Shown here piece after piece: positions 13,665 to 64,000 of a DNA stretch of 64,000 bases. Source of the DNA: Prevotellaceae bacterium (GTDB lineage: Bacteria > Bacteroidota > Bacteroidia > Bacteroidales > UBA932). A program made the translations under genes and the position numbers. The notes under the pieces were generated by a model that saw nothing but the letters and a program-made list of their open reading frames with translations, was not told where the DNA came from and made no database searches. Position 1 is the first letter of the stretch; every line of letters starts with the position of its first letter. The stretch covers positions 62,001 to 126,000 of the forward strand of contig JAIRNF010000056.1 of assembly GCA_031258195.1 (NCBI GenBank). The letters run 5' to 3'.

Positions 13665-13667
13665 GCT

Positions 13668-18641: not shown

Positions 18642-18643
18642 TG

Positions 18644-40989: not shown

Positions 40990-41740
40990 ATTTTGGTTCA
41001 AACCTAGTTAAGTAGTAATAAAAACTATTTAACTATCTTTGACTTAATGAGTAACAAGTATTTTTTTCGCGGCAAGATTTCTGACGAGAAATTCAGGACG
41101 GCTTTACGACTTTTTTGTCTGGACACGGAGGCTAAAAAGACGGCTGAATTTACAGGCTTAAATCAAGACACGGTAAACAATATTTACAATAAGTTTCGAG
41201 AGCGGATCGCCTTGCTTTGTGAGTCGGAAAGCCCGTTCGCAAACGGCGATGTCGAACTCGACGAGAGCTATTCCGGGGCGCGACGCGTACGCCGGGATCC
41301 GAGGAAGAGGGACCAAGGGCAAAATCCCTGTTTTCGGAATGCTCAAACGAGGGGATAAAGCTTACGCCCGGATCGTTAAAAGCCGCTCTATAAGTGAGCC
41401 GTCGCCCATTACTAAGGGCAAGACAGCTACAGAAGCCGTTATTTATTCCGAGGGTTTTAAGACCTATGACGGCCTTGTTAATTACGGGTATAAAAAGCAT
41501 TATCGCGTCAAGCGTGGCGAGAGGCGAATTTGCCGCCGGGCACAACCATATTAATGGAATCGAGAACTTCCGGGGACTATGCGAAGTCAGACTTTCAAAG
41601 CTCCGCGGAGTACATAAACACACGTTCTATTTACACATAAAAGAGTGTGAGCTTAGGTACAACTATCGAAACCAAAATATTTATCTAATTTTACTCAAAG
41701 AACTAAGAAAAAACAAACTTAACTAGGTTTGAACCAAAAT
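40990..41740. mobile_element. IS1595-type insertion sequence, dead
   Basis: 751 bases bounded by perfect 24-bp inverted repeats (40990-41013 and 41717-41740; left end starts ATTTTGGTTCAAACC). It contains one transposase gene broken by at least two frameshifts. No matching direct repeats flank it: left flank CCATTTTTA and right flank ATAACCCGG differ. The left side joins the DUF805 gene and the right side joins the middle of a mobile-element gene, so a deletion or rearrangement through the element is likely. Confidence 0.8.
41047..41726 (+). pseudogene. IS1595-type (ISXO2-like) transposase, frameshifted
   Basis: About 226 codons spread over three frames. The first (41047 on) has the N-terminal domain MSNKYFFRGKISDEKFRTAL and a partly normal catalytic start (GDVELDESYSGARRVRRD). 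The second (about 41285-41520) reads RGRGTKGKIPVFGMLKRG to VNYGYKKHYRVKRGE. The third reads EFAAGHNHINGIENFRGLCE to the end KELRKNKLN inside the right repeat. These are the DDE blocks of the ISXO2 family, interrupted near 41285 and 41520. It cannot make an active transposase. Confidence 0.85.
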
Positions 41741-42097
41741 ATAACCCGGGATAGAATACAGCAATTAGCATTTACTGCTTATGCTGAATTTTTGCTGATT
41801 CACCCCCAGGATGACGGTAGCCGGAGGATGAGCGGAATCATACTCCGCTCTATTGAGACGATGTTTAATACCCCCCTAACCAAAGTTAGTGTAGCAGATA
41901 TAGTAGACTATTCTTCTACCCTTGAGATTTTTTTGGATAAAAAAGATACTTCGAAGTTCAATGATTTTATGTTACTTCAACATGTGAATACGGTAAAGGA
42001 GGATATTAGGCTTCTTTCTTCAAAGAGAATGGATTTTTTAAATAACTATAACGATGATGAGCAAGAAAGAGCCGGTGGACTTCAGACGGGCATCTGA
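41741..42097 (+). pseudogene. mobile-element protein, 5' end replaced by the insertion sequence
   Basis: Open frame that enters from the right inverted repeat and runs 119 codons (ITRDRIQQLAFTAYAEFLLI to QERAGGLQTGI). There is no start codon before the repeat except TTG in the repeat itself, so the original 5' end was probably lost when the insertion sequence moved or recombined. It overlaps the next gene by 44 bases in another frame, typical of coupled genes in Bacteroidota mobile elements. I do not recognise a family. Confidence 0.5.
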
Positions 42098-43192
42098 GGA
42101 GCTTAGTATTATTGATTTTTGTCTTGCACATAATTATTCTATAGACAGATCTCGAACAACAAAGAAACATACTGTAATGGTGGATAATGCCGATGGAGAG
42201 CGCATTATTGTGGTCAAAACGCCAAAGGGAGAACGTTTCTTTATCGCCGGCATACAGAGTGTTGACAACATTGTTGTCTTTATCAAGAATAGGCTTCATA
42301 AGTTTTTCTCTAGCGGTAAGGATGATTGGGAGCAGGTATCTAACATCTTGCGGAACTATATGTCAAATGCACCAACTATTGTAGCGACAAGTAACGAAGG
42401 AGCCGGAGGTAAGGAAAGCCAGTTTAATGTCGAAAACTACAAGCTAAAACCGATTTATAAGTTCGACTACCTAAATGGGAGATGGTTAGAAACCTCTTTT
42501 TTAGACCAATTCAAAAATAGAATTTTCAATAACCCTACAAGGGGGAAGATTACACAATATTCCCTTATTTCGATGAAAAAAACCAAATAAGAGGCCTCGG
42601 ATTACGGACAAGTAATCCCCAATTTGATAAGCGCATTTCTCCCCATGCGGATATTTCATCTTCATACTGGTACACACCTGCAAATCTTTCTGAACAAAAT
42701 ACAATTATTGTACTTGCTGAAGCACCTATTGATGCTCTCTCTTATGAGCAAATTCATTATAAAAAGGATATTTCGAATAGTAATATCTCCTTAGCCAGCT
42801 TCGACGGGAGCGTTAGGCAAGGCGTGATAAGCCGCATCAAACAACATATGACCAACAATCCGGCTTTAAAAATTATTCTTGCAGTTGATAGAGATATTGC
42901 CGGTATTCAACACGCTGTAAATATTTATAATAAGCTATTTGACGATTTCCCCCTTTCATTTACCAAGATAGGTTCAAAGATGGAGGAACATGGGTACTCC
43001 ATTAACGGGAAGGTTTTCAAATTGAATAACGATCTTGATAGTTATCTTTTATTTCTTAAAACTACATTTAAGACAGTCTCTCAAAAGTATAGTAATATAA
43101 AAATTCATCTACCGGAAACAGAAAAAGACTGGAATAAGCAATTGATGGTTTATTATGAGAGCACACACATATACTTAATAATGCTAATTTAA
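42054..43192 (+). pseudogene. toprim/DUF3991-like mobile-element primase, frameshifted
   Basis: The first frame (42054-42590) begins MSKKEPVDFRRASEELSIID, with a zinc-less N-terminal domain like DUF3991 (IQSVDNIVVFIKNRLHKF). After about 42555 the protein continues in the third frame: FPYFDEKNQIRGLGLRTSN, then the toprim-like core IIVLAEAPIDALSY and ISLASFDGSVRQG, ending at 43192. One base missing from the TATTCCC near 42560 would join them into about 379 residues. Such proteins occur on mobilisable elements of Bacteroidota. It is a pseudogene or has an indel error. Confidence 0.7.
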
Positions 43193-43403: not shown

Positions 43404-46400
43404 TCAAACTTTAATATTTTTCCCGACACCCATAAATAGGGGCAAAAAGAGAAAAGATCCTATCAAGGATACAATCAATCCTCCAATAGTCCCCGCTGCC
43501 AACGGAAACCAAAAAGCCTCTCTTTCGCCGATCATAAAAGGAATAAATCCTAAGATTGTAGATACCACAGTTAAGAATATAGGAGTAATCTTGATATTCC
43601 ATGCCTTAATGTATGCTCTTAATTTGCTAATATGGGGCTTTGCAACACGTATATTATTATACTGATTCAAAATATAAATGTTAGTATTAACAGATATACC
43701 ACAAAGGAGCACAAAAGATGCAAATCCTCCTTGATCAAAATTCAGATCAAAAATGTAGAAAGAAAGAAATATACCAATAAAAGAAATCGGTATTACAAAA
43801 ACTATAGACAAAGGTTGCACTAAAGAATTAAATAGAATACCGCAAGAAAAATAAATAACAACAAAGATAAGAAACAGTAAACCGTATTGATTTTTTTCTT
43901 CTTTTCCCAAAAACCATCGTTGACCAGATCTTTTTATTGAGTAACCCAAAGGAAGTTTTGTTTTTAGTGCTTCTATTTTTTCATCCAGAACTTTTTCACC
44001 TTGCTCGGAGTTGCCAATATACTCATATTGAATACATACTTGATATTGTTGGTTTATTTTAACTATTTTTTGCAGGCTTTGACTTTTTTGAACATTTACT
44101 AATTCGGATAGTTTATATGTAGTTGCTTTTGTATGACCAATTTGCTGATTGCGAGTATTCCATAAATCGTATTCTTGTGACTGTTGTGACTGTAAATTAA
44201 TTGCTTCGTTTCCATATATCCCATATATTTTTGTTACATATACCCCCTTTCCTAATAAGGAATTTAAAGAAGAAAATAGTTGTATAGGAGAGATACCTAC
44301 AACGGCTAACCGTTCTTTATCCATATTAAAAACAAATTCTTGGTAATCGTTTTTGAAAAAACTGAACTCCGAACTAATAGAAACATCTCTGATACGACGA
44401 TGAGTGAGTAATTCTTTTTTAAAAAATTCAGCCCAAACCATTAACTCATCATAGTTAAATCCAAACATTTGTACTCGATGTGACCCAGCAGATTCGCGAG
44501 AGTCATTGGAAAACCCATCGCCAAAACCCATCACGCTCCAACTACCACCTCCCAACTGGAAAGATTGAGAAATAAGATTTGACCTTAATTGATATGGAAA
44601 GTTACTACGTTCGGCTTCTTTTGTAAATTGTATATCAATACTTGCTTGTTGAGCACTATTAATCTGTGTTTGGAATCGTTTTACACCTTTAAATTGGCTT
44701 ATAAACTGCTCCATTTGCTGTATCAAATGGTTCATCTGCTCCATAGTAGAACCATTGGGCAAAGAGGCTGCTACATATAAAGAAGTTTCTCCTCTATCAG
44801 TAAGATATGATCCTTGATATACCTTTTGAACAAATAATCGCAAACTTCCTCCAAATATGATATCAATATATGGCTTAAGGTTATTTTTATAATAATCAGA
44901 TCCAAGAGTATTATTATATAGTTTGCTTGATCGATTTTCTTCTTTGATTTTCTCTGGTAACAGAAAGATTGGCAAGCCAAAGCCTAATATAAGAAAGGTT
45001 ATAACAACAACGCGCCAGCGCCAGATAAAGTGACAGAAAAAAGCATAAAATTGATTGAATCGAACATATTTGCGCTTTCCTTTCAAAAACCGAAAAAACG
45101 TTGTTTTTACTAGAATCTTTGTTCTTTTCCTTTTTCTACTCTGTATTCCCAATTTATCAACCAAAGCTGGGAGTAAAAATAAGGCTATTAATAATGATAC
45201 CGCAAGGTTAATAATAACAACACAAGCAAAATCAAGCAGGTTTAGGCGCAACTTTTCTTCTAAAAAAAAGATAATTCCAAGCGCTCCAATCGTTGTAACC
45301 GTTGCCGCCAAGATCGCCATGTATGCTCTTTTGTTCTTTTGTCTGATTAATCGATCAGACATTATAATCGTATTATCAATTATAAGTGTTAGCGAAATTG
45401 TGATGCCAGCCAATGAATATAGCTGCATTTCCAACTTAAACAGATAGTAAAAGATAGCGGCAACTGCAATATTCACAAATAATGAAATAAAGAGGAGCAA
45501 TAAATACTTGACATTACGATAGATTAGAGCAACGAAAAATAAAAGAATAAATAGCGTTAGGCCTGTTCTGTAGTAAATCTTATTCAACTCATCTTTTATA
45601 TATTCAGTTGCATCATAGTTCATGTATAGTTCATATCCAATAGGAAAAGATTTTTTTAAAAAGGCAATCTCCTCTTTTATTTTTTTACTTAACTCTAACT
45701 GGTTTGCGTAGTCTTCAGCGGTAATGGAAAGATATATTGAGTTCAACCCATTGATCCGATAATAACTATCTGGGCTAGACTCTAGATGGAATACATTGAC
45801 CAATTGGTCTAATAATATAAGTTTACCATTGATGTTTCTAACTTGAATTTTTGATACATCAAGTTGATTGTTTTCGCTCCCTCTAGAATTAAGAACAACT
45901 CTTAACCATTGTTTCTTACCTGAGTCGGAATATATAGTTGCAACTCCCAAATATTCTTTGCGCAAAAAGTCTTGAATAGCCGATTGTATATCTTGGGCTG
46001 TAATATCTAGCAGTCTTAGCTGTTCATAGTTGTATTCTAGCAGCCATTCCATCGGTTGGGCCCCATATACGTTAACCTTGTACACCCCTTCTATTTGCGA
46101 CAGCTTTGGACTAATATTACTATTTGCGAATCGTTGAATATCAATCGCATTAGCAGAGGCATTTATCGTGTATGTTAGAAATGGGCGATTTGCATTATCA
46201 TCAGATCTGCTAATAGATATTGTTGGATAGTGAACGTCTTTGGGTAGCGATGACCATGTTTGCCTGATAATTGTTGATATTTCAAATCTAGCAGCATCAA
46301 TATTTGTATGCTTATTTAAATGAATGCTAATATAGCCCCATCCATTTCCGGAGGTAGAGTTTATTTTCTCTATCCCTTTTAAACGGCTAAGCATCGCCTC

Positions 46401-46604
46401 TAACTTTGATGTAACCTGCATTTCTATTACGCGGGGAGAGTTTCCAGGCATAGAAAACCTAACGTTTACCTGCGGAGTTTGCTGAGAGGGATTAAGTTTT
46501 ACCGATAACCGTGGAATTAACGCCAACCCGACAATTGCAAGGCAAACAAATACAATTATGATAGAAAAAGAAGAAGTTCGCTTATAGCCCATATTTACCA
46601 TCAA
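43404..46604 (-). CDS. RND efflux permease (second pump of the locus)
   Basis: About 1066 residues from the ATG at 46604, chosen because MVNMGYKRTSSFSIIIVF matches the usual RND start. An upstream in-frame start (46640) overlaps tolC-like sequence by 59 bases. Two repeats of the RND fold: helix 1, porter domain (LNPSQQTPQVNVRFSMPG), helices 2-6 with LIIDNTIIM (proton-relay Asp in helix 4), a long cytosolic loop, and a second porter and helices 7-12 (GLLFLIFVVIYFSCG). AcrB-type proton antiporter. The substrate is unknown. It is last in the minus-strand locus. The sequence is AT-rich and differs from housekeeping neighbours. Confidence 0.88.
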   Translation of the reverse strand: MMVNMGYKRTSSFSIIIVFVCLAIVGLALIPRLSVKLNPSQQTPQVNVRFSMPGNSPRVIEMQVTSKLEAMLSRLKGIEKINSTSGNGWGYISIHLNKHTNIDAARFEISTIIRQTWSSLPKDVHYPTISISRSDDNANRPFLTYTINASANAIDIQRFANSNISPKLSQIEGVYKVNVYGAQPMEWLLEYNYEQLRLLDITAQDIQSAIQDFLRKEYLGVATIYSDSGKKQWLRVVLNSRGSENNQLDVSKIQVRNINGKLILLDQLVNVFHLESSPDSYYRINGLNSIYLSITAEDYANQLELSKKIKEEIAFLKKSFPIGYELYMNYDATEYIKDELNKIYYRTGLTLFILLFFVALIYRNVKYLLLLFISLFVNIAVAAIFYYLFKLEMQLYSLAGITISLTLIIDNTIIMSDRLIRQKNKRAYMAILAATVTTIGALGIIFFLEEKLRLNLLDFACVVIINLAVSLLIALFLLPALVDKLGIQSRKRKRTKILVKTTFFRFLKGKRKYVRFNQFYAFFCHFIWRWRVVVITFLILGFGLPIFLLPEKIKEENRSSKLYNNTLGSDYYKNNLKPYIDIIFGGSLRLFVQKVYQGSYLTDRGETSLYVAASLPNGSTMEQMNHLIQQMEQFISQFKGVKRFQTQINSAQQASIDIQFTKEAERSNFPYQLRSNLISQSFQLGGGSWSVMGFGDGFSNDSRESAGSHRVQMFGFNYDELMVWAEFFKKELLTHRRIRDVSISSEFSFFKNDYQEFVFNMDKERLAVVGISPIQLFSSLNSLLGKGVYVTKIYGIYGNEAINLQSQQSQEYDLWNTRNQQIGHTKATTYKLSELVNVQKSQSLQKIVKINQQYQVCIQYEYIGNSEQGEKVLDEKIEALKTKLPLGYSIKRSGQRWFLGKEEKNQYGLLFLIFVVIYFSCGILFNSLVQPLSIVFVIPISFIGIFLSFYIFDLNFDQGGFASFVLLCGISVNTNIYILNQYNNIRVAKPHISKLRAYIKAWNIKITPIFLTVVSTILGFIPFMIGEREAFWFPLAAGTIGGLIVSLIGSFLFLPLFMGVGKNIKV

Positions 46605-48057
46605 ATTCAACACCAAGTTTCTCTCGCTTTTCAAAATCAAACAAGGTTAACTTACGTATTTTATAGTAACTCAACCAATAGTTTTTTAGTGCAGAGATAT
46701 AGTTTTGCTGCGCCTCTTTATGCCTGTTTAAGGAAAGGGTAAGAGCGCTTAAATCCGCTTTGCCAATTTTAAATCTCTCTTTTGTGCTGTTGTATGCAAT
46801 AATAGCAATATCCATAGCCTCATCAACGCTTTGAATAAGGTCTTTTTGGATGCCAAAATCGTTTAGTGTCATTATAATATCGTTATTAAGTACTCTTGCT
46901 TTTTGCTGACCGGATATCCTTGCCACATTAAGGTTATTCTGTGCCATATTGACTTTCCCCTTTCTAACACCCCAATCAATGATAGGAACAGAAAGCCCAA
47001 TAGTTATAATATCTTGCCGGGAAGGGTCTTTGTATGCTTTTCTAAAGTTATCCGCCACTTGGTTAAACCCTATGCTGGCGTATAAGGATACATTAAAAAC
47101 TGATTTTTTTGCTTCATCTATATCTCTTTCCGCTTCCAATTCGCTTTGTTTATACTCTAAATAGTCGGGGTTATTCTCTTTTGCCTGGAGTAGGGCCTCG
47201 TTAACGGGTATGTCTATAATCGCAGGTACTTCTGGTAGCTTCAACCGTATTTGAACATTCTCTTCTAAATTAAGAAAAGAGGCTAGTGCGAACATGGCCC
47301 TCTTTAGGTCAATTTCGGCCGTTTTAAGGCTATTTCGTGCATTAAGGGCGTCCAGCCTTAGCGTCATTAAGTCAGATTGAGGAATAGACATGATTTTGAA
47401 TCGTTCTTCTCCTATCCTATAAAGGCTATCGGTTGAAACAATATTTTCTTTTGCCATATCATATTCGGCTTGCGCCGTCGCCAAATCGAAAAAGTACTCT
47501 GTTGCTTCTTCCGATATGCTTTCGCGCTCATACAGGTATGTTTTTTTTGCTTTCTCATACTTGAGCGGCTCTATCTTTCTTTCCCACTTAAAACTGTTAA
47601 ATCCAAATAGGCTTTGCGAGTACCCTACCCGAATCGGAACACTTGTGTATTGTGTATAAGTATTGTCTCCAAAGTTTCTCATGAACGTCAAATCTGAATC
47701 GACAAAAAATGTTCCTCCCGTAATATCTACGTTTTGCTGAATAGATAATCCACCCGAAGAGTATAAAGACTGCTGTTCTCTATAAATATCAATATTATTA
47801 TCTGAGTCATAACGCCGCGTGATATCCCGATAGTATTGCAAGGGGGTCATATCTAAATTTAACGACGGTAACCGGGATGCTTTATACGAGCGAAACTCCC
47901 AATGGCTTGCCAGATATAAGTTTTTTGCAATAAAAGCCTGTAGCGAACTATCCGCTGCTATTTCTATCGCTTGCTTTAAATTCAACTCCATCACTACCTG
48001 AGATTTTGAATGGGCAGCAAAAGCCATAAGCAATATAATAAGTAGAGTATGCTTCAT
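46582..48057 (-). CDS. TolC-family outer-membrane efflux channel
   Basis: 491 residues. Signal peptide (about 1-20, HSKSQV). Two TolC repeats: LNLKQAIEIAADSSLQAFI, the outer-membrane strand region SLNLDMTPLQYYRDITRRY, SIQQNVDITGGTF, a helical stretch, then the second repeat VNEALLQAKENNPDYLEYKQ and ITIGLSVPIIDWGVRKGKV. The trimeric channel takes substrate from the adaptor/pump to outside. Overlaps the start of the second RND gene by 23 bases and lies 26 bases after the first RND gene, so all are one operon. Confidence 0.88.
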   Translation of the reverse strand: MKHTLLIILLMAFAAHSKSQVVMELNLKQAIEIAADSSLQAFIAKNLYLASHWEFRSYKASRLPSLNLDMTPLQYYRDITRRYDSDNNIDIYREQQSLYSSGGLSIQQNVDITGGTFFVDSDLTFMRNFGDNTYTQYTSVPIRVGYSQSLFGFNSFKWERKIEPLKYEKAKKTYLYERESISEEATEYFFDLATAQAEYDMAKENIVSTDSLYRIGEERFKIMSIPQSDLMTLRLDALNARNSLKTAEIDLKRAMFALASFLNLEENVQIRLKLPEVPAIIDIPVNEALLQAKENNPDYLEYKQSELEAERDIDEAKKSVFNVSLYASIGFNQVADNFRKAYKDPSRQDIITIGLSVPIIDWGVRKGKVNMAQNNLNVARISGQQKARVLNNDIIMTLNDFGIQKDLIQSVDEAMDIAIIAYNSTKERFKIGKADLSALTLSLNRHKEAQQNYISALKNYWLSYYKIRKLTLFDFEKREKLGVEFDGKYGL

Positions 48058-48082
48058 AAGACGGAATACTTATATAATAAAT

Positions 48083-51000
48083 TTAAATGTTGGCCTTTTT
48101 TCTATATATACACCAATATGCTAGCGGAACAACAAACAGGCTTATTATCGTTCCGATTACCATTCCTCCGATTGTTGCAATAGCCAAAGGCTTCTCCAAC
48201 TCAGATCCCATGTCGGAGCTAAAGAGTAAAGGAGCCATACATACTATGGTGGTAAGGCTTGTCATGATAATAGCTTTTAAGCGACGGCGACCTCCTTCAT
48301 GTATCGCGTCCATCAGCTCCACTCCCTCTTCTCTAAGTTGATTTATAACATCTATTTTTAAAATACTATCATTAATTATAATACCGCATGTTACGATAAT
48401 ACCTATTGCCGACATTAGGTTTAGGCTATGTCCCATAATCATTAGCAACCCGATAGCAGCTGTAATGTCAATAGGGATTTCCAATAATACGATCAATGGC
48501 TGAACAAAACTTTCAAATTGAGCAGCCAATATAAAATACATGAGTAGTATAGAGATAAACAGTATAACCATCAGTTCCTGTATCATTTTTTTATTGGAAA
48601 AAAAACTGCCTGAAAAATCAACTTCCCAGCTGCTGTTGCTAGCAGCATTATCTCTTACATCGCTCACTACCGATTCAACATTATCAATATCAAAGAAATT
48701 GAACGGAATGTACTCGCCATTTCGTCCGGCTATAATTGTTTTAAGGTCTTCTGCAGCCGTAACCGTTACAAAAGAACTTAGCGGTAAACGGTTCTTTTCT
48801 CCTTTATCATTTTCTTCTGTATAAACCAACGTATTTTCTAAGATTTCGAGAATGCTTAAATCTTCACTACCGATTAAAACAGGTAGATAGCGATGGAATG
48901 AACGCATTTCTGTTACTTGATTCTCTCTGAATGCTGTTTTTAAAGTATTGTGGATTTCATCATATGAGACATTATATAGTAACAACTTATCTCTATCAAC
49001 TTGTATATTTAGCTGCTTTTGAAAAGAAATACCTGAGGGAGTTGTTCCAGCTAAGTGCGTCAGCTGAGTTTCTATTGTTCTGATATTCATAGAATTTTGT
49101 TCTTGAGATGTATTTCTTGTATAATACTCCACTGTCAGCTTCGCTTCTCCGATATCAAATATTTTCTCAAAAATGGTAGATGGTGGAGTGAATGAAACAA
49201 CAGCATGTGGATAGTGGGTGTTGAAGAAAATAGCGATATCGTCTTTTAATCCTGCTATACCATTCACATGTGGCGTTTTAAAATAAACTTCTGCTTCAGA
49301 AGAAGTAAGCTCGCGTTCTCTGTTTAAAAGATATTGTTGTTGGGCAACTAATGCAGAGTACTCAATTACATTTTTTTCAATAGCCTTGAATAGGCTTAAT
49401 ACCCGTTCTTTATTTTCTTCTACATGGATGTTCTCATTCCATTCAACGTTAACAATTAATTCGTTTTGGCTTATTTCAGGCATTCGTTCTTTAGGAATGT
49501 TATTGAAAAGTAGCACACAGAGTGGAAATACAGAAAGCATTACCACTAATACGATAATTTTGTGGCTAAAAACCCACTTAACTCCAGCATGATAACACTT
49601 TTCTAAAAAAGATTCTTTTTGCTCTTGTTTCTTCTCTTTGTTTTGAATATTATTTTCGGTTGCATCGCGTTTTTTTGAACTTTTCCTTTTAAAAGAAAAT
49701 ACTAGTTTATATAAAACAGGTAGTAAAATTATACCAGTTAAATATGAGACAAGCAGTCCGATGGTTACAGAGAAGGCCTGATCAAAAAATATGGCACCTG
49801 CTATTCCGCTTAAAAATATAAGAGGAACAAATACCGCGATGGTTGTTAAAGATGAACTTAGCATGGGAGCTATTACTTCACTTGTTCCTTTAACGCAAGA
49901 ATCTTCAAAGTTTAACCCTCGTTGTTGATATTGCCCTATATTGTCTGTTACGATAATAGAGTTATCAATCATCATTCCAAGCGCCAGAATTAACCCTGTA
50001 AGCGAAATAACATTCAATGACACATTAAAAAGATAGAAGAAAAGCAGGCTTATAATTAGCGAAACAAACATGCTAAGACCAATAATTAAAGGCGAGCGAA
50101 CGTCTTTTAAAAATAGGGCGGAAACAATACAAATAAATAAGAAAGCTAGTATTAAGTTTTGTTGTAGGTTAGAGATGGTATAATCCAACAGCTCTGTTTG
50201 ATTCTGAGAAATATTAAAATCAATATGAGGATAGAGTTCTTCAAAGTCTGAGATAGTACTATTTAGGCTTGCCTGCATATTGCTCATGTTTTCATCGGCC
50301 TGCTTAATAACGGCCATTGAAATGGCTCGCTTACCATTATATAGCACTAAGCCTTTTTCTTTTTCCGAGACAAGGGCAACCTCTGCAAAGTCCTTTAGTT
50401 GGAATATTTTATCGTTTTTTTTGATATATATGTTTTGTATGTCTTCTATTGTCCGTAGAACAGATGAGAACTTAACGTTGTATTCGTAATATCCATCACG
50501 GATAACCATACTCCCTGGCTCGATATTGTTGTTTTGCAAAACTTCTTCCAGTTCTCCAAGCGTAATTCCAACTATCTCGAGGTAGCTTGCATTGGGCGTT
50601 ATCAGCACCTGCTTGTTGACAATACCTGACATATCAACCATTGCTACTTGTGGAAGTTGCTCAATACGTCTGTGAATCACGGCTTCAGCAAATTGGCATA
50701 GTTCTAAAAAGTCTTCTTCCTCTGACTCTCCAAAAGCGGTGGGATTCTTCAAGGTGAGATAAAGATAGAACACGGGTATATCGGTTGCACTCGCCTTAAC
50801 CACGCGCGGCCTATCAACTTCTTTGGGAATATAGTTCAGTGCCTCGTCAACTTTCTCATTGATTTCTATAAAGGCCAGATCTGTATCTACGCCAAATTCA
50901 AAGTTTAACTTAATGATAGCGCTACCGTCTCTTGTTTCGCTACGAATATCCCTTAACTTACCTACCTGTAAAAGTTGCTGGCGAACGGGTAAAACAACGG

Positions 51001-51178
51001 TGTTTTCCAGTTCACGTGCAGATGTATTATCCCCAGATATTTGGATAGTAATTTCGGGTATAGCGATATCGGGAAGTAGCGATACCGGTATGTTGATATA
51101 AGTAATAATTCCCAGCAAAAAGAATGCTACGAAAGCCATACAAACAGCGACAGGATGGCGAACAAGAAATCTAACCAT
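48083..51178 (-). CDS. RND efflux permease (first pump of the locus)
   Basis: 1031 residues, full length. Start MVRFLVRHPVAVCMAFVAFF with the first helix, then the porter domain (PVSLLPDIAIPEITIQISG, ELENTVVLPVRQQLLQV), helices 2-6 with LGMMIDNSIIVTDNI (proton-relay Asp), a cytosolic loop rich in Lys/Glu (KRKSSKKRDATENN), and the second half ending GVELMDAIHEGGRRRLKAI, EKPLAIATIGG. AcrB/CusA-type. Starts four bases after the adaptor gene ends (51183), so it pairs with that adaptor. The other permease may form a MdtBC-like hetero-complex with it, which is only inference. Confidence 0.9.
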   Translation of the reverse strand: MVRFLVRHPVAVCMAFVAFFLLGIITYINIPVSLLPDIAIPEITIQISGDNTSARELENTVVLPVRQQLLQVGKLRDIRSETRDGSAIIKLNFEFGVDTDLAFIEINEKVDEALNYIPKEVDRPRVVKASATDIPVFYLYLTLKNPTAFGESEEEDFLELCQFAEAVIHRRIEQLPQVAMVDMSGIVNKQVLITPNASYLEIVGITLGELEEVLQNNNIEPGSMVIRDGYYEYNVKFSSVLRTIEDIQNIYIKKNDKIFQLKDFAEVALVSEKEKGLVLYNGKRAISMAVIKQADENMSNMQASLNSTISDFEELYPHIDFNISQNQTELLDYTISNLQQNLILAFLFICIVSALFLKDVRSPLIIGLSMFVSLIISLLFFYLFNVSLNVISLTGLILALGMMIDNSIIVTDNIGQYQQRGLNFEDSCVKGTSEVIAPMLSSSLTTIAVFVPLIFLSGIAGAIFFDQAFSVTIGLLVSYLTGIILLPVLYKLVFSFKRKSSKKRDATENNIQNKEKKQEQKESFLEKCYHAGVKWVFSHKIIVLVVMLSVFPLCVLLFNNIPKERMPEISQNELIVNVEWNENIHVEENKERVLSLFKAIEKNVIEYSALVAQQQYLLNRERELTSSEAEVYFKTPHVNGIAGLKDDIAIFFNTHYPHAVVSFTPPSTIFEKIFDIGEAKLTVEYYTRNTSQEQNSMNIRTIETQLTHLAGTTPSGISFQKQLNIQVDRDKLLLYNVSYDEIHNTLKTAFRENQVTEMRSFHRYLPVLIGSEDLSILEILENTLVYTEENDKGEKNRLPLSSFVTVTAAEDLKTIIAGRNGEYIPFNFFDIDNVESVVSDVRDNAASNSSWEVDFSGSFFSNKKMIQELMVILFISILLMYFILAAQFESFVQPLIVLLEIPIDITAAIGLLMIMGHSLNLMSAIGIIVTCGIIINDSILKIDVINQLREEGVELMDAIHEGGRRRLKAIIMTSLTTIVCMAPLLFSSDMGSELEKPLAIATIGGMVIGTIISLFVVPLAYWCIYRKKANI

Positions 51179-51182
51179 AGGA

Positions 51183-52250
51183 TTATTTAATGTTTCTTAC
51201 CTTTACCGGTGCTTCATGTGCAAGATTTAGATTACCCTCGTAAATTAAGCTGTCGCCTTCATTTAGCCCCTCTACTACAATATATTCCGTTGAATTTTGC
51301 AGTCCGGTTTGTACATATACCCATTGAGCTTTTTCATTCTTCAACGTGAACACTACCTCTTTATTTGACCTAAGCACCAATGCTTCTTTAGGAATTACCA
51401 GTTGATTAGGGATTACTTGTTGTATCTTTACTTTTACATTCATCCCATCATACAAATTCTTAATTTTATCATTGATGGATGCCTTTACCCATACCATTCC
51501 ATTTTTATCAACACTAGGGTTTATTTCCGAAATGTAGCTGTTGGTAGAATAATCCAGTATAGCAAAAGGAGAAATTTGAACCTTATCATTCAATTGAATA
51601 GCAGACAGTTCACTTTCTAAAATATAAAAAATAACCTCAAAAGAAGAGTTGTTTACAATAGAGCAAAAAGTTTCGTTGGTATTGGCAGTGTTATGCTCTT
51701 TTAAAAATAGGTTTGCAACAACTCCCGAAAAGGGGGCTCGTAGCACTGCATTGTCTAAATTATGCTTACTCAACTCATATTGTATGGTGGATTGATCATA
51801 GTTACTTTTAATCTTGGCTATCTTCATGATTTCGTCTGGCACCCGCAGGGAATCACTCGGCAGATAACCCTGACTGATTAGCGCATCTTGTAACTCTAGT
51901 TTTGCTCTTTCTAGGTTGTCTTTAGCCTGATCGTACTCATTTCGGATTTTGAATAAATCAAGAGAAGCGAGTTGCTGTCCCTTATTTACAACATCTCCAT
52001 TTTTCACGTAGATATTCTCTATTCTTTCTACGGACTCAAAATATAAGTCTGCCTTTTGAGTGGCGCTAATAGTTCCATTAGACATGATTTCTTGGTGAAA
52101 ATCTTTTGGAGCCAGCATCATTACACTTACCTCATTTCCTGTTTCGGGAAGTATGGTTAGCGGATTATTTTCATCTGCATTTTTATTCGTACTAGTGGAT
52201 GCACAAGAAAGAAAAATTATTGATAATAATAAAATGACTATTGCTTTCAT
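51183..52250 (-). CDS. periplasmic adaptor (membrane fusion) lipoprotein
   Basis: 355 residues. Lipoprotein signal with lipobox SIIFLSCAS (Cys16). HlyD/AcrA-type layout: beta-barrel/lipoyl half (YVKNGDVVNKGQQLASLDL), coiled-coil hairpin (YDQAKDNLERAKLELQDAL), the second lipoyl half (LRAPFSGVVANLFLKEHNT), and a beta-barrel (VWVKASINDKIKNLYDGMNV). It links the RND pump to the TolC-type channel. Anchored to the inner membrane by lipid. It lies between the transglutaminase remnant and the first RND gene. Confidence 0.88.
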   Translation of the reverse strand: MKAIVILLLSIIFLSCASTSTNKNADENNPLTILPETGNEVSVMMLAPKDFHQEIMSNGTISATQKADLYFESVERIENIYVKNGDVVNKGQQLASLDLFKIRNEYDQAKDNLERAKLELQDALISQGYLPSDSLRVPDEIMKIAKIKSNYDQSTIQYELSKHNLDNAVLRAPFSGVVANLFLKEHNTANTNETFCSIVNNSSFEVIFYILESELSAIQLNDKVQISPFAILDYSTNSYISEINPSVDKNGMVWVKASINDKIKNLYDGMNVKVKIQQVIPNQLVIPKEALVLRSNKEVVFTLKNEKAQWVYVQTGLQNSTEYIVVEGLNEGDSLIYEGNLNLAHEAPVKVRNIK

Positions 52251-52281
52251 ATGATTAGAACTAAGAGTTTCTACATTTTAA

Positions 52282-54073
52282 CTATTTTCCATACACAATA
52301 TTTTCTTTACCTGCGAAAACTTGTACCCCATTTTTTATATAAAAAACCTGTTCCTCTTCTCCTCTTGTATGATTTCTTAGCCAGAGTAAAGCGTTCGAAG
52401 GTATATTCGTATATTTTAGATAAAGATTTTTTGCTTGCTGTTGACCTAAAGACTTCCAGCCTTCTTCTCCTCCATGATAGAATAGCTCATATACATCACC
52501 TATTCGTATGAAGTTATCATCTGTGCGAGGCAACAACTCGATACGATCAAGGGGTATTGGTTTTAAAAGATCAAATGTTATTGTTGCGGCAGAATCTGCG
52601 GATATATAATAGGTTAAGATATCCCCATCAATGAGGTTCTCAAATATTATTCTCTTTTTAGGATGAGGTACAGGATTTGCTCCTGATATTTCCATATTTC
52701 TTATAGGGATAGAATTTCCAATAGCATAAACATAGACTTCTGCTATATCTATTATGCTACTATCTGATGAAGTATATCTGATATATTGAACGGTTTTTCC
52801 CCCAATAGAAAATATTTTTTCGATATCATATAAAATAGAGTCTTGTAATTGGTATGAAAAAGTAATATCAGAGAAATTACGGTTAGCAGAGCCTTCGAGT
52901 GTAGAGTTAACTATTGAATTAATAGACGTATAAAGCCATTTGGGCAAAAACCACTTGCGGTAAATGGTAAGATTTTGCATATCAGACAGGTTGGGTGTAA
53001 AAGTATGAATGGATCCCATCGAATCAATGCTAACTGGGTACCCGGCAGGCACTAGCATTCCATTGTTATATTGTAACAATTGGTACACAAGCCCAGGTTC
53101 AACATCGGCAAATACTGCCTTCCCATCCTTTGCTTTAGTTACCGCAATAGGTATCGTCTTTGGAGGAGGGAGCACTCCTAAATATATATACGGATTTTTG
53201 GAGGAGAAAAAATTAATCTCAAGTTTATTCCTACCCGAATAAGCGGCAGTAACATCTTTGAGCAATGGATCCATAAAAAACGATGCAACATATCTATTAT
53301 CATACTCCCCCTTATCTTGACATTCATAGCAAAGTTGATACACCTTGCCCTTCTTTTTGATATCTTGTGCCCCCCTTTCTATAGAGAGACCTATGTTGTT
53401 AAATGCAATATGTGCTCCTGTTGTATCTCGAATAGCCGTCCATGAATGCCCAATATTGTAATCATCAGGAGCAGATATGTAAAAATGTCTAACGGCAGGT
53501 ATTCCAACAGAGCGAAGAGCATATATTGTTGCATTTGTTAGATCTATACAATTGCCACTTTTGTTATTTAAGAAAAAAAGTGGCTCCACATCAATAAAGG
53601 TAGAATGGTGATAGTGCACGATGTCCTCTGATTTATCTACATATAAACTAAGTTGGTTAGCGGCCTCTATGATATCTGCTCCAGAATAGATAGAGTCTAA
53701 AATTTGACCATACTTTTTATAGTAAACAGTTCTCCAATTTTCTAAAGGTTCATTTCCTAATCTATATGGAAGTAAATATTCGCAGAAATCACCAAAAGAA
53801 AGGTTTTTATTCCATGAAAGATTTTGCCATTGATTGTAAGCCATATCTATATTCTCTATCAAATAGTCAGAAGTAATAATATCAATATCATATACCTTAT
53901 CCAAACTTTCAACAGTAAAGCACACTTGCAGATTTTTGTATCTCTTCTGGAATATTAAGAATATCTTTAGAAGCATAAATCAACGCCTCTTTTCTTTTCT
54001 CTAGGTCTTTTCCTTTATAACCAAATTTGCCAGGCATATTTTCAATAAGAAATACCGCAGCCGGATTTTTTTC
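52282..54073 (-). pseudogene. transglutaminase-domain protein, N-terminally truncated and frameshifted
   Basis: The main frame starts at 53976 and has 564 codons. Before it, another frame from 54073 reads EKNPAAVFLIENMPGKFGYK, then GKDLEKRKEALIYAS and ends near SASVLYC. A single-base change near 53925 would join that to TVESLDKVYDIDIIT in the main frame. The usual lipoprotein signal and first segment are missing. In the main frame the transglutaminase core is intact: GNC (Cys143), GHSW (His177), RDTTG (Asp184). A beta-rich C-terminal half follows. Large proteins of this kind are common in Bacteroidota, beside propeller and thioredoxin-like genes. Followed by the adaptor gene. Confidence 0.75.
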
Positions 54074-54078
54074 TTATA

Positions 54079-54642
54079 TTAGTTTTCATAATTACATATT
54101 ACATCATAATATAATTGCGCGAGACCCTCATTTAGGGTAGGATCCCCGATTAGTATTACCTCATCATTTTTATTTAGCAATACAGTTTGTAGTCTAGGAT
54201 CATATATTTCATTTTTTTGAAAGTAACTATGGCCTAGGTCTAATATCCATGGGCATTCAAACCCTACCTCTAGAAGGGGGTTTGTATTTTCCTGGGTATT
54301 ATATTCCGGTAGGTCAATAAAAAAATAGAACCTACAATCTTTCCGTTCTTTATATATTTTTATCATGAAGTCTTTCCAAAAGGCGAGATTTACCATGCAT
54401 GCACTACATGACCCATCTACAAATGTTGCGACTTTTAAAGTATTGCCTTTTTGGGTTATGTCATACTGATCCAAAGTCCCAAATGATATAATATACATAG
54501 AATCAGGCAAGGGCATTTTTTCTCCACTCCATTTTTCTACTATTGCTTCTGTTTTTTCATTCCACCTTTTATTTTTAGTTTGTCCACAAGAACACAGTGT
54601 TATGACACATATAAAAAATAGTGGAATACAGCATCTATTCAT
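54079..54642 (-). CDS. thioredoxin-like lipoprotein
   Basis: 187 residues. Lipoprotein signal with lipobox TLCSCGQ (Cys19). One CxxC redox centre in DGSCSACMVNLAFW (about residues 98-101). Otherwise the C-terminal part is a thioredoxin-like fold: KVATFVDGSC strand, CRFYFFIDLPEY strand, LLNKNDEVILIGDP near the end. Likely periplasmic disulfide handling of a partner such as the neighbouring Cys-containing peptide. Starts four bases inside the end of the propeller gene, so it is translationally coupled to it. Confidence 0.78.
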   Translation of the reverse strand: MNRCCIPLFFICVITLCSCGQTKNKRWNEKTEAIVEKWSGEKMPLPDSMYIISFGTLDQYDITQKGNTLKVATFVDGSCSACMVNLAFWKDFMIKIYKERKDCRFYFFIDLPEYNTQENTNPLLEVGFECPWILDLGHSYFQKNEIYDPRLQTVLLNKNDEVILIGDPTLNEGLAQLYYDVICNYEN

Positions 54643-55730
54643 AATTTACTTTTTTGTTTTAAATTAAATTCTACAATAGCAAATTCTCCATTATTTAAAG
54701 CTATACCATAGAGTTTATCACCATTTTCATCAACCACTATTCTTTTTAAAGGATAGTCAACATGTAGTTCATATGTTTCTTTTCCACCCCAATCTACTAC
54801 TCTAATTATATTTGCATAGTAATAATCTTTTGTATCCATCTTCCTTCCAGAAAACAAGGCGTATACATTTTCTTTTGAGGAGGTTATATCAAGATAACCA
54901 TTTCTGGATTGGGCAGTATAAGCTGCTACAGGTGGATAGTTCTCAAATTCAATAATCTTTAAATTATGAGGCAGATAAGTTTGATAATGCCATATAGAAT
55001 CGAGCCTATTACCTTTCATCTCATAAATATCAATAATGTCTGCCATATGTGTAGATAAAGCAACCTTCTTTCTGTCTGGGCTAATTGTTATATCGGATGA
55101 AAATAATTTTGCATTCTGCCTTTCATTTAATCTCGAATCTATGGTGTCCGTTATAGGTATATAATAACTGATATCATGAGTTTTTTTGTTGATTAATCCC
55201 AGTCGTCCTTTACTCGAATTTAAAACACCAAGAAGATAATCTTCGGTAAAATAATAGTATTTAGAAATAAGTTCATCTTTGTCGATCTGATTTAGATTGT
55301 AGTATGGTTCAACAACAATATTCTCTCCTTTCTTTTTTAGAGAATTTTTTTCTACTTTAAGCATTTTCATTCCAATCAGATCATATAAAAAAACGTACTC
55401 TTCACCAGGAGCAGCTTGAACAGCGCTCAAGGCTAGAACCTCGGTAGGGCCTGAGCCGATTTGTAGAAATGAATTGATGAAGTTACCTGTGTAGTTATCA
55501 TATACTTCTGCCAACGGTTCTCCTTTTGAGTTGCTAATAATAAGCAAAGAATCAACCAAACCAATAGACCAGGGGTCTTGTAGCAATTCTTCACTGATAA
55601 GTAAGGTACCTTTGATTTGAAATTTTTCCTCGAACTGTGCCACTTCCTCGTGCTTACAGGAAGAAAAAAATAGCAGCAAGTATAGTACCAAGCCAAAATA
55701 TATTAATCTTTGTATTGTATTAATCATCAT
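54639..55730 (-). CDS. six-bladed beta-propeller (TolB-like) lipoprotein
   Basis: 363 residues. Lipoprotein signal with lipobox FFSSCKHE (Cys26 or so). Six-bladed propeller region of the BF3164/TolB-like type: LLQDPWSIGLVDSLLIISNS, IGSGPTEVLALSAVQ, SSDITISPDRKKVALSTHMA, RIVVDENGDKLYGIALN. These lipoproteins usually stand next to small NVEALA-type peptide genes in Bacteroidales, as here. Their function is unknown. Lies 122 bases after the peptide gene, with a GC hairpin in the gap, and overlaps the thioredoxin-like gene by four bases. Confidence 0.8.
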   Translation of the reverse strand: MMINTIQRLIYFGLVLYLLLFFSSCKHEEVAQFEEKFQIKGTLLISEELLQDPWSIGLVDSLLIISNSKGEPLAEVYDNYTGNFINSFLQIGSGPTEVLALSAVQAAPGEEYVFLYDLIGMKMLKVEKNSLKKKGENIVVEPYYNLNQIDKDELISKYYYFTEDYLLGVLNSSKGRLGLINKKTHDISYYIPITDTIDSRLNERQNAKLFSSDITISPDRKKVALSTHMADIIDIYEMKGNRLDSIWHYQTYLPHNLKIIEFENYPPVAAYTAQSRNGYLDITSSKENVYALFSGRKMDTKDYYYANIIRVVDWGGKETYELHVDYPLKRIVVDENGDKLYGIALNNGEFAIVEFNLKQKSKL

Positions 55731-55805
55731 GTTAATTTTTAGTAGTTGTATGGAGAAGATAAAACCATTTATTGTTTATTGGAAGGTAATTCTATTTTAA
55801 TTTAA

Positions 55806-55827
55806 CATGGGGGGTTACCCCCTCATG
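55806..55827 (-). terminator. GC-rich hairpin between peptide and propeller genes
   Basis: Five G-C pairs (GGGGG 55810-55814 with CCCCC 55818-55822) around TTA, with flanking CATG copies that can extend the stem. It stands 25 bases after the peptide gene stop on the minus strand. It could act as a partial terminator, so that the peptide mRNA is made in excess of the other genes. Confidence 0.5.
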
Positions 55828-55852
55828 AAATTATTTGGTTCTTAACTGTTGC

Positions 55853-56065
55853 TTAACCGAAAATTAATGCTCCAGTTCCTTCGCCAATACCGTATATTAC
55901 ACATTGATTCGTATTTGATGCATCGCATTTAGCTTCAGAAGCAGATGACTGTGGCATCATAACGTTTTTTAAAGAAATGTCGTTTCCTTCATTCTTATTA
56001 GTGGTTACAAGTAAAGATGTAGCCATGGCAAATGTAAATAATGCTGGTAGTATAAACTTTTTCAT
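55853..56065 (-). CDS. small secreted peptide, NVEALA-like, two cysteines
   Basis: 70 residues. Hydrophobic leader (residues 3-19, FILPALFTFAMATSLLV), then a polar segment and a region with ISLKNV at the place where NVEALA-type peptides carry their motif. The mature part has two cysteines eight residues apart (KCDASNTNQCV) and a glycine-rich end (IYGIGEGTGALIFG). NVEALA-type peptides are common in Bacteroidales next to propeller lipoproteins; their function is not established. This gene is first in the minus-strand locus, followed by propeller, thioredoxin-like, transglutaminase and RND genes. The match to NVEALA is partial (no exact NVEALA motif). Confidence 0.6.
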   Translation of the reverse strand: MKKFILPALFTFAMATSLLVTTNKNEGNDISLKNVMMPQSSASEAKCDASNTNQCVIYGIGEGTGALIFG

Positions 56066-56977: not shown

Positions 56978-57649
56978 ATGCTTACAGGTATAGTTGTTTT
57001 TACGGTATTCATCATCGGATTATGGATTGGTCAGGAACGACCTCCAATGCGCACTATGGGCGAAACAAGGCTATGGTATTCGTTTTTCTTATCGCTAGTT
57101 GGATATATTACGTATAAACATTGGAAATATCAATGGCTACTCCCATTCAGCGGACTAGTTGTCTGCGTATTTGTATGCATCAATATATTCAAACCCGAAA
57201 TTCATTCAAAGAACCTAATGCCTGCGCTACGGAGCTATTAGTTTATTCCGCACGTAACGGTATATATACTTTCGTATGCAATGCTTGGCGCAGCAACTAT
57301 AGCCTCAATAATACAGCTGAATAAGCTTAGCAAAAATATAGCGGATATAAACCTCTACCGTATTATGGATAACCTTGTATATGTCGGCTTTGGTTTCTTA
57401 ATGCTAGGCATGCCGATGGGTTGTATATGGGCTAAAGAAGCCTGGGGGCACTATGGGTCGTGGGATCCTAAAGAAACTTGGGCTTTCGTTACTGCCTCGG
57501 CATACTTAATCTATATCCATATGCGGAGACAAAAGTATTACCCAAAAGCTACTTTACGGGTTTTGTCTATAGCATTTGTTTTACTAATGATAACATGGAT
57601 TGGAGTAAGCTATCTGCCTTCTGCGCGAAACAGTATCCATACATATTAA
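56978..57649 (+). pseudogene. ccsA: cytochrome c biogenesis protein CcsA, in-frame amber
   Basis: Two open stretches in one frame, separated by one stop. From 56978 the protein reads VGLWIG-type motif (FIIGLWIGQERPPMRTMGET) and continues to NLMPALRSY, then TAG at 57239-57241, then FIPHVTVYILSYAMLGAATI and on to the end at 57649. Homologues have Trp at the stop (TGG), so one base explains it. The haem-binding motif WGxxWxWDxxE is WGHYGSWDPKE, with Gly (GGG, 57455-57457) in place of the second Trp. Two independent losses at tryptophans point to a true pseudogene. CcsA ligates haem to c-type cytochromes. No ccsB/resB is seen upstream. A 20-codon ATG-to-TAA reading (56916-56978) overlaps its start. 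Confidence 0.85.
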
Positions 57650-58290: not shown

Positions 58291-59763
58291 CTATTCTGTA
58301 AGATATCCGGGGTTTTGCTGCTCTTTTAATGCAGGATTCGGCTTAAACTGATCAAGCGGAATAGGTAATACACATCTTTCAAAATCCCAATTTATAACCA
58401 TATTAGCAGCGCCATAATGGTAGCCGCCCGTACGTTGATATGTCTTGCCGTTACGCAATAAATCGAAGTAACGATGACCTTCGCCTATAAGCTCTAGACG
58501 ACGCTCGTCCAGCACTCTATCCAGCGTATAATCTCCAGCAGCAACAGAGCTATTCGGATCTCCACGCTTAACGATGTCGTTTAAATATTCAAGCCCCCTT
58601 GTTTGGTACGCCGCATTAGATCCTTTAATAGCGGCTTCCGCTGCTATTAAATAAACTTCAGATAGCCGAATTAACGGATAGTTGTTATCAAACACGGCTG
58701 TACCATATTGCGGACCCGGATATTTATATAAATACGGCGCTCCGTTACTCCAATACCCGATAACTGAATTACGAATATCATCGGGATATTGTGAAATGAA
58801 GTTCTTAAAATCCGACGTTACCATGATAGCTCCATATCCACCGGGAGTCGCCATATAGCCGGTACCATCCCGCCCCGGATTATCTGCCGGCGTATTAAAT
58901 ACTTCTAATAATGATTCAGGATCGTAATTTGTTCCTTGCGAGTTATAGCTGAATGCCTTAGGATATTCTTCATTCGTATATAATCTATATACCCCCGAAG
59001 ATTTTAAATCCTCAATCAACTCGCTTGCAACCTCAAAAGCTTTGTCGTTCTTTTCCCAGTATAGATACGCACGGGCAAGCAATGCGCGAGCGCCATATCT
59101 ATTCATCCTATTAAGCGGATCTTTTGCTGTACTCATAAGCGGTATAGCTAACTCTAGCTCTCTGGTAATAAAATCGAACGTTTGATCTACCGTACTGCGA
59201 AGAGGTAGCTCATCTTCAGCCAACACGTGGTCGATAATAATAGCCCCCCATGAGGAACCGTTATTTTTCTTATACGGATAGCCAAATACTTTTACCTGAT
59301 CGAAATGCGCCATTGCGCGTAGGGCAATGGCGTGTCCCTTAATATTATCCAGCCGCATTTGCGTTGCATCGGTAATAACTCCGTTATCAATTACTTCAAT
59401 TATTCGAGATGCATTTCTGCTTAAGTACATAGGGTTATGCCAAAAACGTCCCGACATAGTGGTAATTGAGGTAGCATTAGCAGAATGATGGTTAAACGTG
59501 TACATGTGGTAAGATATCTGCGTACTTCCGTCCGACTGGATATCGTCTCCGCGAATATCTCCATAGATCATAAAGTAGTGATTATAGTACGTATTTCTTT
59601 GCAGAATATCGTATAGCCCGTTAATCGCGCCTTCCGCGTCAACTAGCGTTTTAATAGCAGATGCTGTAGGCAAACCTGTAGGAGGATCTGTATCTAAGAA
59701 ATCGCTACAGGAAGTAAAAGTAAGCGCAACGCCCACTATGAATGATATGATAATTTTTTTCAT
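58291..59763 (-). CDS. SusD/RagB family nutrient-binding lipoprotein
   Basis: 490 residues. Lipoprotein signal with lipobox TFTSCSDF (Cys19). Then the SusD start DFLDTDPPTG, TPR-like helical repeats, a middle GARALLARAYLYWEKNDKAF, and the RagB end motif RLELIGEGHRYFDLLRNGK. It is the outer-leaflet lid that captures a substrate for the SusC pore. Substrate unknown: no glycosidases are in the visible part. Starts 28 bases after the susC stop, in the same transcript. Confidence 0.93.
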   Translation of the reverse strand: MKKIIISFIVGVALTFTSCSDFLDTDPPTGLPTASAIKTLVDAEGAINGLYDILQRNTYYNHYFMIYGDIRGDDIQSDGSTQISYHMYTFNHHSANATSITTMSGRFWHNPMYLSRNASRIIEVIDNGVITDATQMRLDNIKGHAIALRAMAHFDQVKVFGYPYKKNNGSSWGAIIIDHVLAEDELPLRSTVDQTFDFITRELELAIPLMSTAKDPLNRMNRYGARALLARAYLYWEKNDKAFEVASELIEDLKSSGVYRLYTNEEYPKAFSYNSQGTNYDPESLLEVFNTPADNPGRDGTGYMATPGGYGAIMVTSDFKNFISQYPDDIRNSVIGYWSNGAPYLYKYPGPQYGTAVFDNNYPLIRLSEVYLIAAEAAIKGSNAAYQTRGLEYLNDIVKRGDPNSSVAAGDYTLDRVLDERRLELIGEGHRYFDLLRNGKTYQRTGGYHYGAANMVINWDFERCVLPIPLDQFKPNPALKEQQNPGYLTE

Positions 59764-59791
59764 AATACTTTTCTTTTACGTTTTAATAAGA

Positions 59792-63151: not shown

Positions 63152-63157
63152 AGTAGT

Positions 63158-63218
63158 GTTTCTTAAGTTTAAAGTATTTACATCAAAACATAATACTATA
63201 GTTCTATAGTTTCTTAAG
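63158..63218. promoter_or_regulatory. repeat-rich control region between fecR and susC
   Basis: GTTTCTTAAG occurs twice in direct orientation (63158-63167 and 63209-63218). ACTATAG-TT-CTATAGT (63195-63210) forms a small palindrome beside the second copy. On the minus strand this is the leader of susC. It may be a sigma-factor or regulator binding region. Confidence 0.4.
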
Positions 63219-63243
63219 CTACTGTTTCCATAGGCATAACTTT

Positions 63244-64000
63244 TTATTTTAAAATGTATAAAGTACTGAGATCCTCTCTTTCTATTTGAAATTCACATGT
63301 TTTTGCAATAATTCTTAAAATTTCGCCTACCCCGTCTTGCTGTCGAAATTTTCCTGTATAAATTTTATCTTTCAGGCTAGCGTTTTGTATATCAATGGTT
63401 ACATCATAGTATGTTTCCAACTTTTTAGCAATGTCCGCTAACGGAACACTATTAAAATGGTAGATACCCGTTTTCCACAAAAAGTGATTTTCGTCATACC
63501 GACCTTTACTAACTACTCCGTTAGAAAGGCTTAAAAATTCACCCGGAGTTAACCGATGTACATCATTTTCAATATATATTTCAACCGCCCCTTGCTCTAA
63601 AGCTACTTCTGCATAATCTGCTGTTTCGTAATCAATAACATTAAATGATGTTCCTAATACTTTTACTGAAAGGGATGGTGTGTCCGCAGTAAAAGGACGA
63701 ACAGGATCGGAAACAACTTTGAAAAAGCCTTCGCCCTGTATTTCTACCTTTCTATTCTTACTTCCAAAAATAGCAGGATATTTTAACGTTGATCCGGCAT
63801 TTAGCCACACTTCTGTTCCATCGCTTAGTATAACTGTTACACGCTGTCCCGGAGGAACAGAAATTTCGTTATATGGAGTGTTATTGATTAATCGTTCGTG
63901 GGCAATATGCTGAGAAACAAACCACGTTGTCAAAAGAATGACAAGCACAGCGGCTGCTTGGGATACTCTGGCTAAAATCTTTCGCTTTGCTACTCTAGGC
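63244..64000 (-). CDS. FecR family anti-sigma factor, N-terminal end off-window
   Basis: The frame continues to the right edge. About 251 codons are visible. A hydrophobic helix near the edge (AAAVLVILLTTWFVSQH) is the inner-membrane segment. It is followed by the FecR domain: ISVPPGQRVTVILSDGTEVWLNAGS, IQGEGFFKVV-type motif, FTADTPSLSVKVLGTSFNV, and the C-terminal DUF4974-like part FNSVPLADIAKKLETYYDV. The family holds a cytosolic ECF sigma factor until SusC signals. The sigma gene is expected just beyond the window. Same strand as susC and susD, forming a FecIR-type locus. Confidence 0.92.
   Translation of the reverse strand, partial: PRVAKRKILARVSQAAAVLVILLTTWFVSQHIAHERLINNTPYNEISVPPGQRVTVILSDGTEVWLNAGSTLKYPAIFGSKNRKVEIQGEGFFKVVSDPVRPFTADTPSLSVKVLGTSFNVIDYETADYAEVALEQGAVEIYIENDVHRLTPGEFLSLSNGVVSKGRYDENHFLWKTGIYHFNSVPLADIAKKLETYYDVTIDIQNASLKDKIYTGKFRQQDGVGEILRIIAKTCEFQIEREDLSTLYILK

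Follow-up and report, generated by a model that had tools for sequence, protein, structure and literature searches.

We analyzed a window of 64,000 nucleotides from a Prevotellaceae bacterium (contig JAIRNF010000056.1, positions 62,001 to 126,000) and focused on the locus at 43404-56065 of this window, where the gene for a small secreted peptide leads into the genes of a pump of the resistance-nodulation-division (RND) type. A preliminary description had listed eight same-strand genes from a 70-residue peptide to a second RND pump, and all eight open reading frames (ORFs) are present on the minus strand in the order peptide, propeller, thioredoxin-like protein, transglutaminase-like protein, adaptor, RND1, TolC, and RND2 (Table 1). 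Pfam and NCBIfam models name TolB_like (PF15869), Transglut_core (PF01841), HlyD_D23/RND_mfp, ACR_tran (twice), and OEP in the locus. The successive spacings from the peptide to RND2 are 122, -4, 102, 31, 4, 25, and -59 bases. The last of these overlaps results from the mechanical choice of a TTG start for RND2; because relatives align from about residue 14-17 of RND2, the real overlap with TolC is smaller, and the true start probably lies 14-17 residues further in. A scan for sigma-70 promoters gave hits no more frequent than in shuffled sequence.

Table 1. Features of the minus-strand locus (positions are those of the window)
Feature	Position	Strand	Evidence
70-aa secreted Cys-containing peptide (NVEALA-leader-like / DUF6520-like)	55853..56065	-	PF20130 24.2 bits; rank with leader hidden Markov model (HMM)
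9-bp GC-rich stem-loop in peptide/propeller gap	55806..55827	-	local z -1.3
TolB-like 6-blade propeller lipoprotein	54639..55730	-	PF15869, E 2.5e-18; sole copy in genome
Thioredoxin-like lipoprotein with CSAC	54079..54642	-	CxxC and lipobox Cys conserved; TlpA/ResA-type profile match
Out-of-frame remnant of transglutaminase N-terminal region	53921..54070	-	comparison with family alignment
Transglutaminase-like protein, N-terminally truncated; C-terminal discoidin/carbohydrate-binding module (CBM)-like domains	52282..53976	-	PF01841; Cys and His; PDB matches
RND periplasmic adaptor, peptide-linked pump clade	51183..52250	-	TIGR01730 above cut-off; clade score
RND permease 1 (RND1)	48083..51178	-	PF00873, E 1e-168; own clade; TM4 D-N, no TM10 Lys
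TolC-type outer-membrane channel	46582..48057	-	OEP PF02321, E 2e-39
RND permease 2 (RND2)	43404..46640	-	PF00873, E 2e-104; own clade; mechanical TTG start

Genome G025, probably the Prevotellaceae metagenome-assembled genome Pq454_bin27 (JAITPN010000012.1), keeps the order peptide(s)-propeller-thioredoxin-transglutaminase-adaptor-RND1-TolC-RND2. It has two peptides of the NVEALA family, pump proteins 54-67% identical to those of the window, and a transglutaminase 30% identical. We annotated 60 regions around transglutaminase or NVEALA sites, nearly all from an order-wide sample, with locally built profiles, and same-strand sets drawn from NVEALA peptide, propeller, thioredoxin, transglutaminase, Wzy_C, signal peptidase I, adaptor, RND1, TolC, and RND2 recurred among them (L092-L129), with a gene order that varies between cassettes. 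The window locus belongs with these cassettes by its pump clade and its same-strand peptide, propeller, thioredoxin, and transglutaminase genes. The eight genes first listed stand, but the full set usually extends to two more, for a signal peptidase I and for a Wzy_C protein, and the window locus lacks them both.

Among 344 Bacteroidales genomes, in which the pump was called by its RND2 profile at E <=1e-180, 61 had the pump, 51 the transglutaminase, and 20 NVEALA. By a hypergeometric test, which ignores phylogeny, pump and NVEALA occurred together in 17 genomes (3.5 expected, p=2e-11), pump and transglutaminase in 26 (9.0 expected, p=2e-9), and transglutaminase and NVEALA in 16 (3.0 expected, p=2e-11). 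At least one same-strand cassette gene lay within 10 kb of 29 of 41 order-sample pumps, compared with 0 of 26 ordinary RND operons taken mostly from the same genomes (Fisher p=1e-9), and the same was seen for 10 of 18 pumps from the named scan (p=2e-5); 20 of 40 extra pump loci were read. A same-strand RND gene, nearly always of one pump clade, was found within 12 kb of 19 of 51 transglutaminase loci (about 1.7 expected), and in 7 of the 17 genomes having both NVEALA and the pump, the two were no more than 25 kb apart (0.7 expected). An NVEALA gene even sits inside the pump operon of Capnocytophaga canis, between TolC and RND2, and immediately behind RND2 in genome G450. The continuation of peptide genes into a pump, initially thought unusual, is instead recurrent, and the proposed linkage survived the check set for it in advance, namely, whether relatives carry the two groups in unrelated places. 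These results support a genuine functional neighborhood of the peptide group and the pump rather than a chance one.

The pump clade also accompanies other peptide systems. In genome G168 it adjoins a radical S-adenosylmethionine (SAM) maturase (TIGR04148), a pseudo-radical-SAM protein (TIGR04150), and a glycosyltransferase (TIGR04157), relatives of which occur in genome G275. Genes for a radical-SAM GG-samocin ribosomally synthesized and posttranslationally modified peptide (RiPP), matching TIGR04148, TIGR04150, and TIGR04157, lie upstream of propellers and the pump clade at L197 (1-10081) and L198, and in Capnocytophaga felis (L079 1-1991) genes for an HlyD-type adaptor, a LanC-like protein, and a galactosyltransferase-like protein are directly upstream of the pump. 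The common neighbors of this pump are thus peptides that differ in chemistry.

An adaptor, RND permeases, and a TolC-type channel encoded together in a single operon make up a tripartite RND exporter of the HAE1/MdtABC type. The adaptor scored 513 bits for the pump clade, compared with no more than 173 for control adaptors. RND1 and RND2 each formed a clade of their own with support of 1.0, two proteins labeled RND1 by score falling in the RND2 clade, and these clades stood apart from all controls but one (support 0.95). Transmembrane helix 4 (TM4) reads D-N or D-S in nearly all RND1 and RND2 proteins of the pump clade, whereas 23 of 26 controls have D-D. The TM10 lysine, present in 20 of 26 controls, is missing from all 49 RND1 and all 59 RND2 proteins, and neither pump subunit has the canonical proton relay of TM4 Asp-Asp with TM10 Lys. 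The best solved-structure match of the window RND1 and of the RND2 profile was MdtB, one of the two RND subunits of MdtABC. The pump resembles MdtABC-TolC in having two different RND genes, one adaptor, and a TolC; besides the TM4 residues and the loss of the TM10 lysine from both subunits, it differs in that its operon includes TolC and often propeller genes and is linked to peptide genes. We rejected a plain MdtABC drug pump on account of the separate clades and the different relay residues. As a separate observation, the adaptor gene of two genomes (L072 543-3059 and L196 10572-13134) is preceded by a conserved set of three genes, for an uncharacterized membrane protein, a signal peptidase I, and a GtrA-like protein.

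The preliminary description had linked the window peptide to the NVEALA family, but it is not an NVEALA member in the Pfam sense. A search of its own genome with PF14055 (cut-off 27 bits) was empty, and this family is not among the peptide's Pfam matches. It can be aligned with DUF6520 (PF20130) over residues 1-56 (E 4e-5), with a score under the curated cut-off (24.2 versus 25.4 bits), and we rejected membership in either family on these cut-offs. Against an HMM of 35 NVEALA leaders, the peptide ranked first among 2003 small ORFs (E ~0.005). Its leader aligns up to L-K-N-V, the EALA position reads MMPQ, and its tail has two Cys residues; the peptide may be a diverged relative in the equivalent genetic position. 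Relatives of the cassette, by contrast, do encode genuine NVEALA members, and a propeller usually comes after each such peptide, in line with the Pfam families NVEALA (PF14055) and TolB_like (PF15869). The Pfam description of these families is not known to include a pump or a processing set.

We compared 47 distinct peptides. They have a hydrophobic N terminus and a motif with A at -3 (45), L at -2 (46), and A/G/T/S at -1 (40/4/2/1), counts that the search pattern itself partly fixes, and the -3/-1 pattern looks like a signal-peptidase-I site. Cys makes up 0.3% of leader residues versus 7.8% of tail residues, its number is even in 34 of the 47 peptides, and the tails share little similarity between loci. 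A stem-loop lies in the gap between peptide and propeller genes, with z below -2 in 15 of 17 gaps of relatives and a mean z of -4.2 in these 17 gaps versus -0.5 in 86 control gaps (p=1e-7); the window hairpin on its own is not significant (z -1.3). A stem-loop at this place is what one would expect if the peptide has to be produced in excess. Four loci (L063, L136, L140, and L093) have tandem pairs of NVEALA peptide and propeller, with up to about ten propellers consecutively. Such arrays suggest diversifying cognate pairs.

The propeller belongs to TolB_like PF15869 (66.9 bits, cut-off 29.2), and a PDB sequence search with it gave no match. The thioredoxin-like protein matched no Pfam family. 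The profile of its family matches TlpA/ResA-type thioredoxins (StoA 3erw, E 4e-7), which it resembles as a lipoprotein with an invariant CxxC; all 18 relatives keep the lipobox Cys and the CxxC unchanged, in agreement with its earlier description as an extracytoplasmic CxxC protein. It differs from these thioredoxins in going unrecognized by Pfam and in that some relatives carry DUF1573. The transglutaminase core belongs to PF01841 (27.9 bits, cut-off 23); its catalytic Cys and His are present in 15 of 15 aligned proteins and retained in the window copy, and the C-terminal part matches CBM6-like and CBM32-like PDB structures. We confirmed the damage to this gene that the preliminary description had noted. 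N-terminal family residues (AAVFLIENMPGKFGYKGKDLEKRK...) sit in a different frame just upstream of the ORF, which lacks the signal peptide and about 50 residues found in the intact copies of relatives. With this truncation and frameshift, the transglutaminase gene of this genome is not intact. An AlphaFold model of an intact relative, built from a three-row alignment, was unusable (mean pLDDT 40.6).

The genome holds a second RND1-TolC-RND2 copy on contig 21 (L049 in G000, 11719-19701) that is 67-86% identical to the window copy. It is broken, with RND2 split in two and RND1 interrupted by an inserted segment carrying an unrelated gene. Nonsynonymous divergence (dN) between the copies is about 0.09-0.14, and synonymous divergence (dS) is about 1.3-1.65 for RND1 and RND2; for TolC, dN is 0.10 and dS is saturated. 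The dN/dS ratio of RND2 is about 0.08. Because dN is low relative to dS, both copies go back to genes under constraint. Searching the genome with the Wzy_C protein of one relative gave no match. Partial decay here is suggested by the broken transglutaminase, the loss of EALA from the peptide, and a locus without Wzy_C and signal peptidase I. Activity of the system in this genome is uncertain because of the first two of these lesions, the empty Wzy_C search with its one query, and the decayed second pump.

In the best-supported reading, which we hold to be somewhat more probable than not, the locus is a partly decayed copy of a cassette that is conserved in Bacteroidota and serves to mature and export small cysteine-rich peptides. 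We infer the following course of export, cleavage, disulfide formation, and propeller pairing. The peptide precursor would enter the membrane via Sec and be held there by its N-terminal hydrophobic segment, which is followed by a conserved pro-region predicted to end at N[VIL]EAL[A/G/S/T]. The CxxC thioredoxin-like lipoproteins would set the disulfides of the peptide. Where its gene is present, the dedicated signal peptidase I is predicted from the -3/-1 residues to cut after the EALA-type site. Speculatively, the transglutaminase-like lipoprotein might act on the peptide or its partner by cutting or crosslinking, and each propeller might bind its cognate peptide, the one whose gene it directly follows. 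The released peptide would then be picked up in the periplasm by the MdtABC-like exporter, made of two different RND subunits, the adaptor, and TolC.

Several observations weigh against this reading. Cassette genes are not found near 12 of the 41 order-sample pumps and 8 of the 18 named pumps, several of which are on short contigs, and no pump is found near 32 of the 51 transglutaminase loci, many of them owing to contig ends. Of 35 signal-peptidase-like proteins, only 18 showed the Ser box SMxP[TS] under a strict pattern, and 31 showed the Lys box. The window peptide is missing the EALA motif, and the dN/dS against the contig 21 copy reflects past selection only. Adjacent loci could also serve glycan handling, because Wzy_C and glycosyltransferases recur.

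It is unlikely, though the most probable of the alternatives, that this pump exports a glycan, lipid, or drug and that the peptide and propeller genes belong to a distinct envelope system, which has regulation or mobility in common with the pump and keeps the peptide attached to the envelope. The O-antigen-ligase-like Wzy_C proteins and glycosyltransferases beside the pump, the CBM/discoidin-like domains of the transglutaminase-like protein, and the third of pumps with no cassette gene nearby are all consistent with such a substrate. This alternative does not account well for a clade that also adjoins unrelated ribosomal-peptide clusters of the radical-SAM and LanC-like kinds, nor for the peptide genes that two lineages have inside or directly behind the pump operon.

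It is less probable still that the pump provides immunity by expelling antimicrobial peptides of the NVEALA type, whether these have leaked back in or originate with rivals, and that export takes another route. In their variable, Cys-rich tails and their tandem pairing of peptide with propeller, the loci are reminiscent of bacteriocin-immunity arrays, and efflux as self-immunity to antimicrobial peptides has been noted in other Gram-negative bacteria (PMC10352776). However, the signal peptidase and Wzy_C protein shared by the cassettes would be unnecessary for immunity, and no other exporter, such as a peptidase-containing ATP-binding cassette (ABC) transporter (PCAT), was noticed in the cassettes, although no systematic search was made. 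That the genes are chance neighbors in this genome, as the decay of the transglutaminase and of the contig 21 pump might suggest, is very improbable and was refuted at the level of gene association by the control-operon and proximity statistics and by conservation that spans many families and extends to named loci of Bacteroidales and Capnocytophaga.

In its broadest form, peptide maturation and export by the cassette might be an undescribed Bacteroidota secretion route, a proposal we make tentatively and would not yet bet on. Ribosomally made Cys-rich peptides with NVEALA-type leaders would mature in the periplasm through a dedicated signal peptidase I, thioredoxins, and the transglutaminase-like enzyme. 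A specialized RND pump with two subunits and a noncanonical proton relay would then export them, and other lineages would reuse this pump for peptides of the radical-SAM and LanC types. A published survey of RiPPs in Bacteroidales reports export through ABC-type (PCAT) transporters; neither "RND" nor "propeller" occurs in its text (PMC10352776). The PCAT systems treated there, including those of bacteroidetocins, share with the cassette small leader-core peptides and dedicated export genes. They rely, however, on a GG leader in the cytoplasm and on export by an ABC transporter, whereas the cassette pairs a periplasmic RND pump with peptides that have a Sec-type hydrophobic N terminus and an EALA site. 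A transcriptome table for B. thetaiotaomicron lists BT0662 as O-antigen ligase, BT0664 as propeller, BT0667 as signal peptidase I, and BT0669 as RND adaptor (PMC10434189); judged from these annotations, BT0662-BT0669 is probably the same cassette. In the literature searched, which leaves out most subscription papers and preprints, no paper names NVEALA or DUF6520, and searches on these families and on peptide export by RND pumps turned up no description of such a system, which may exist elsewhere.

RND pumps have mostly been studied as drug and metal exporters. If this proposal is true, the present clade, which accompanies ribosomal peptide genes and lacks the standard proton-relay residues in both subunits, would represent a different use of RND proteins, perhaps with different energy coupling. 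NVEALA peptides, for which the literature searched describes no function, would gain a testable pathway of maturation, release, and cognate propeller. The B. thetaiotaomicron cassette, if it is the same, would place the system in a genetically tractable gut commensal.

The flanks of the locus hold other features. At 41047-43192, short overlapping ORFs cluster on the plus strand with no clear genes and are probably mobile-element remains. Plus-strand ORF fragments at 56978-57649, with WGHYGSWDPKETWAF, resemble a decayed cytochrome c biogenesis gene of the CcsA type. Upstream of the cassette, at 58291-63948, a SusD/SusC pair and a FecR-like anti-sigma gene form an ordinary regulated uptake locus.

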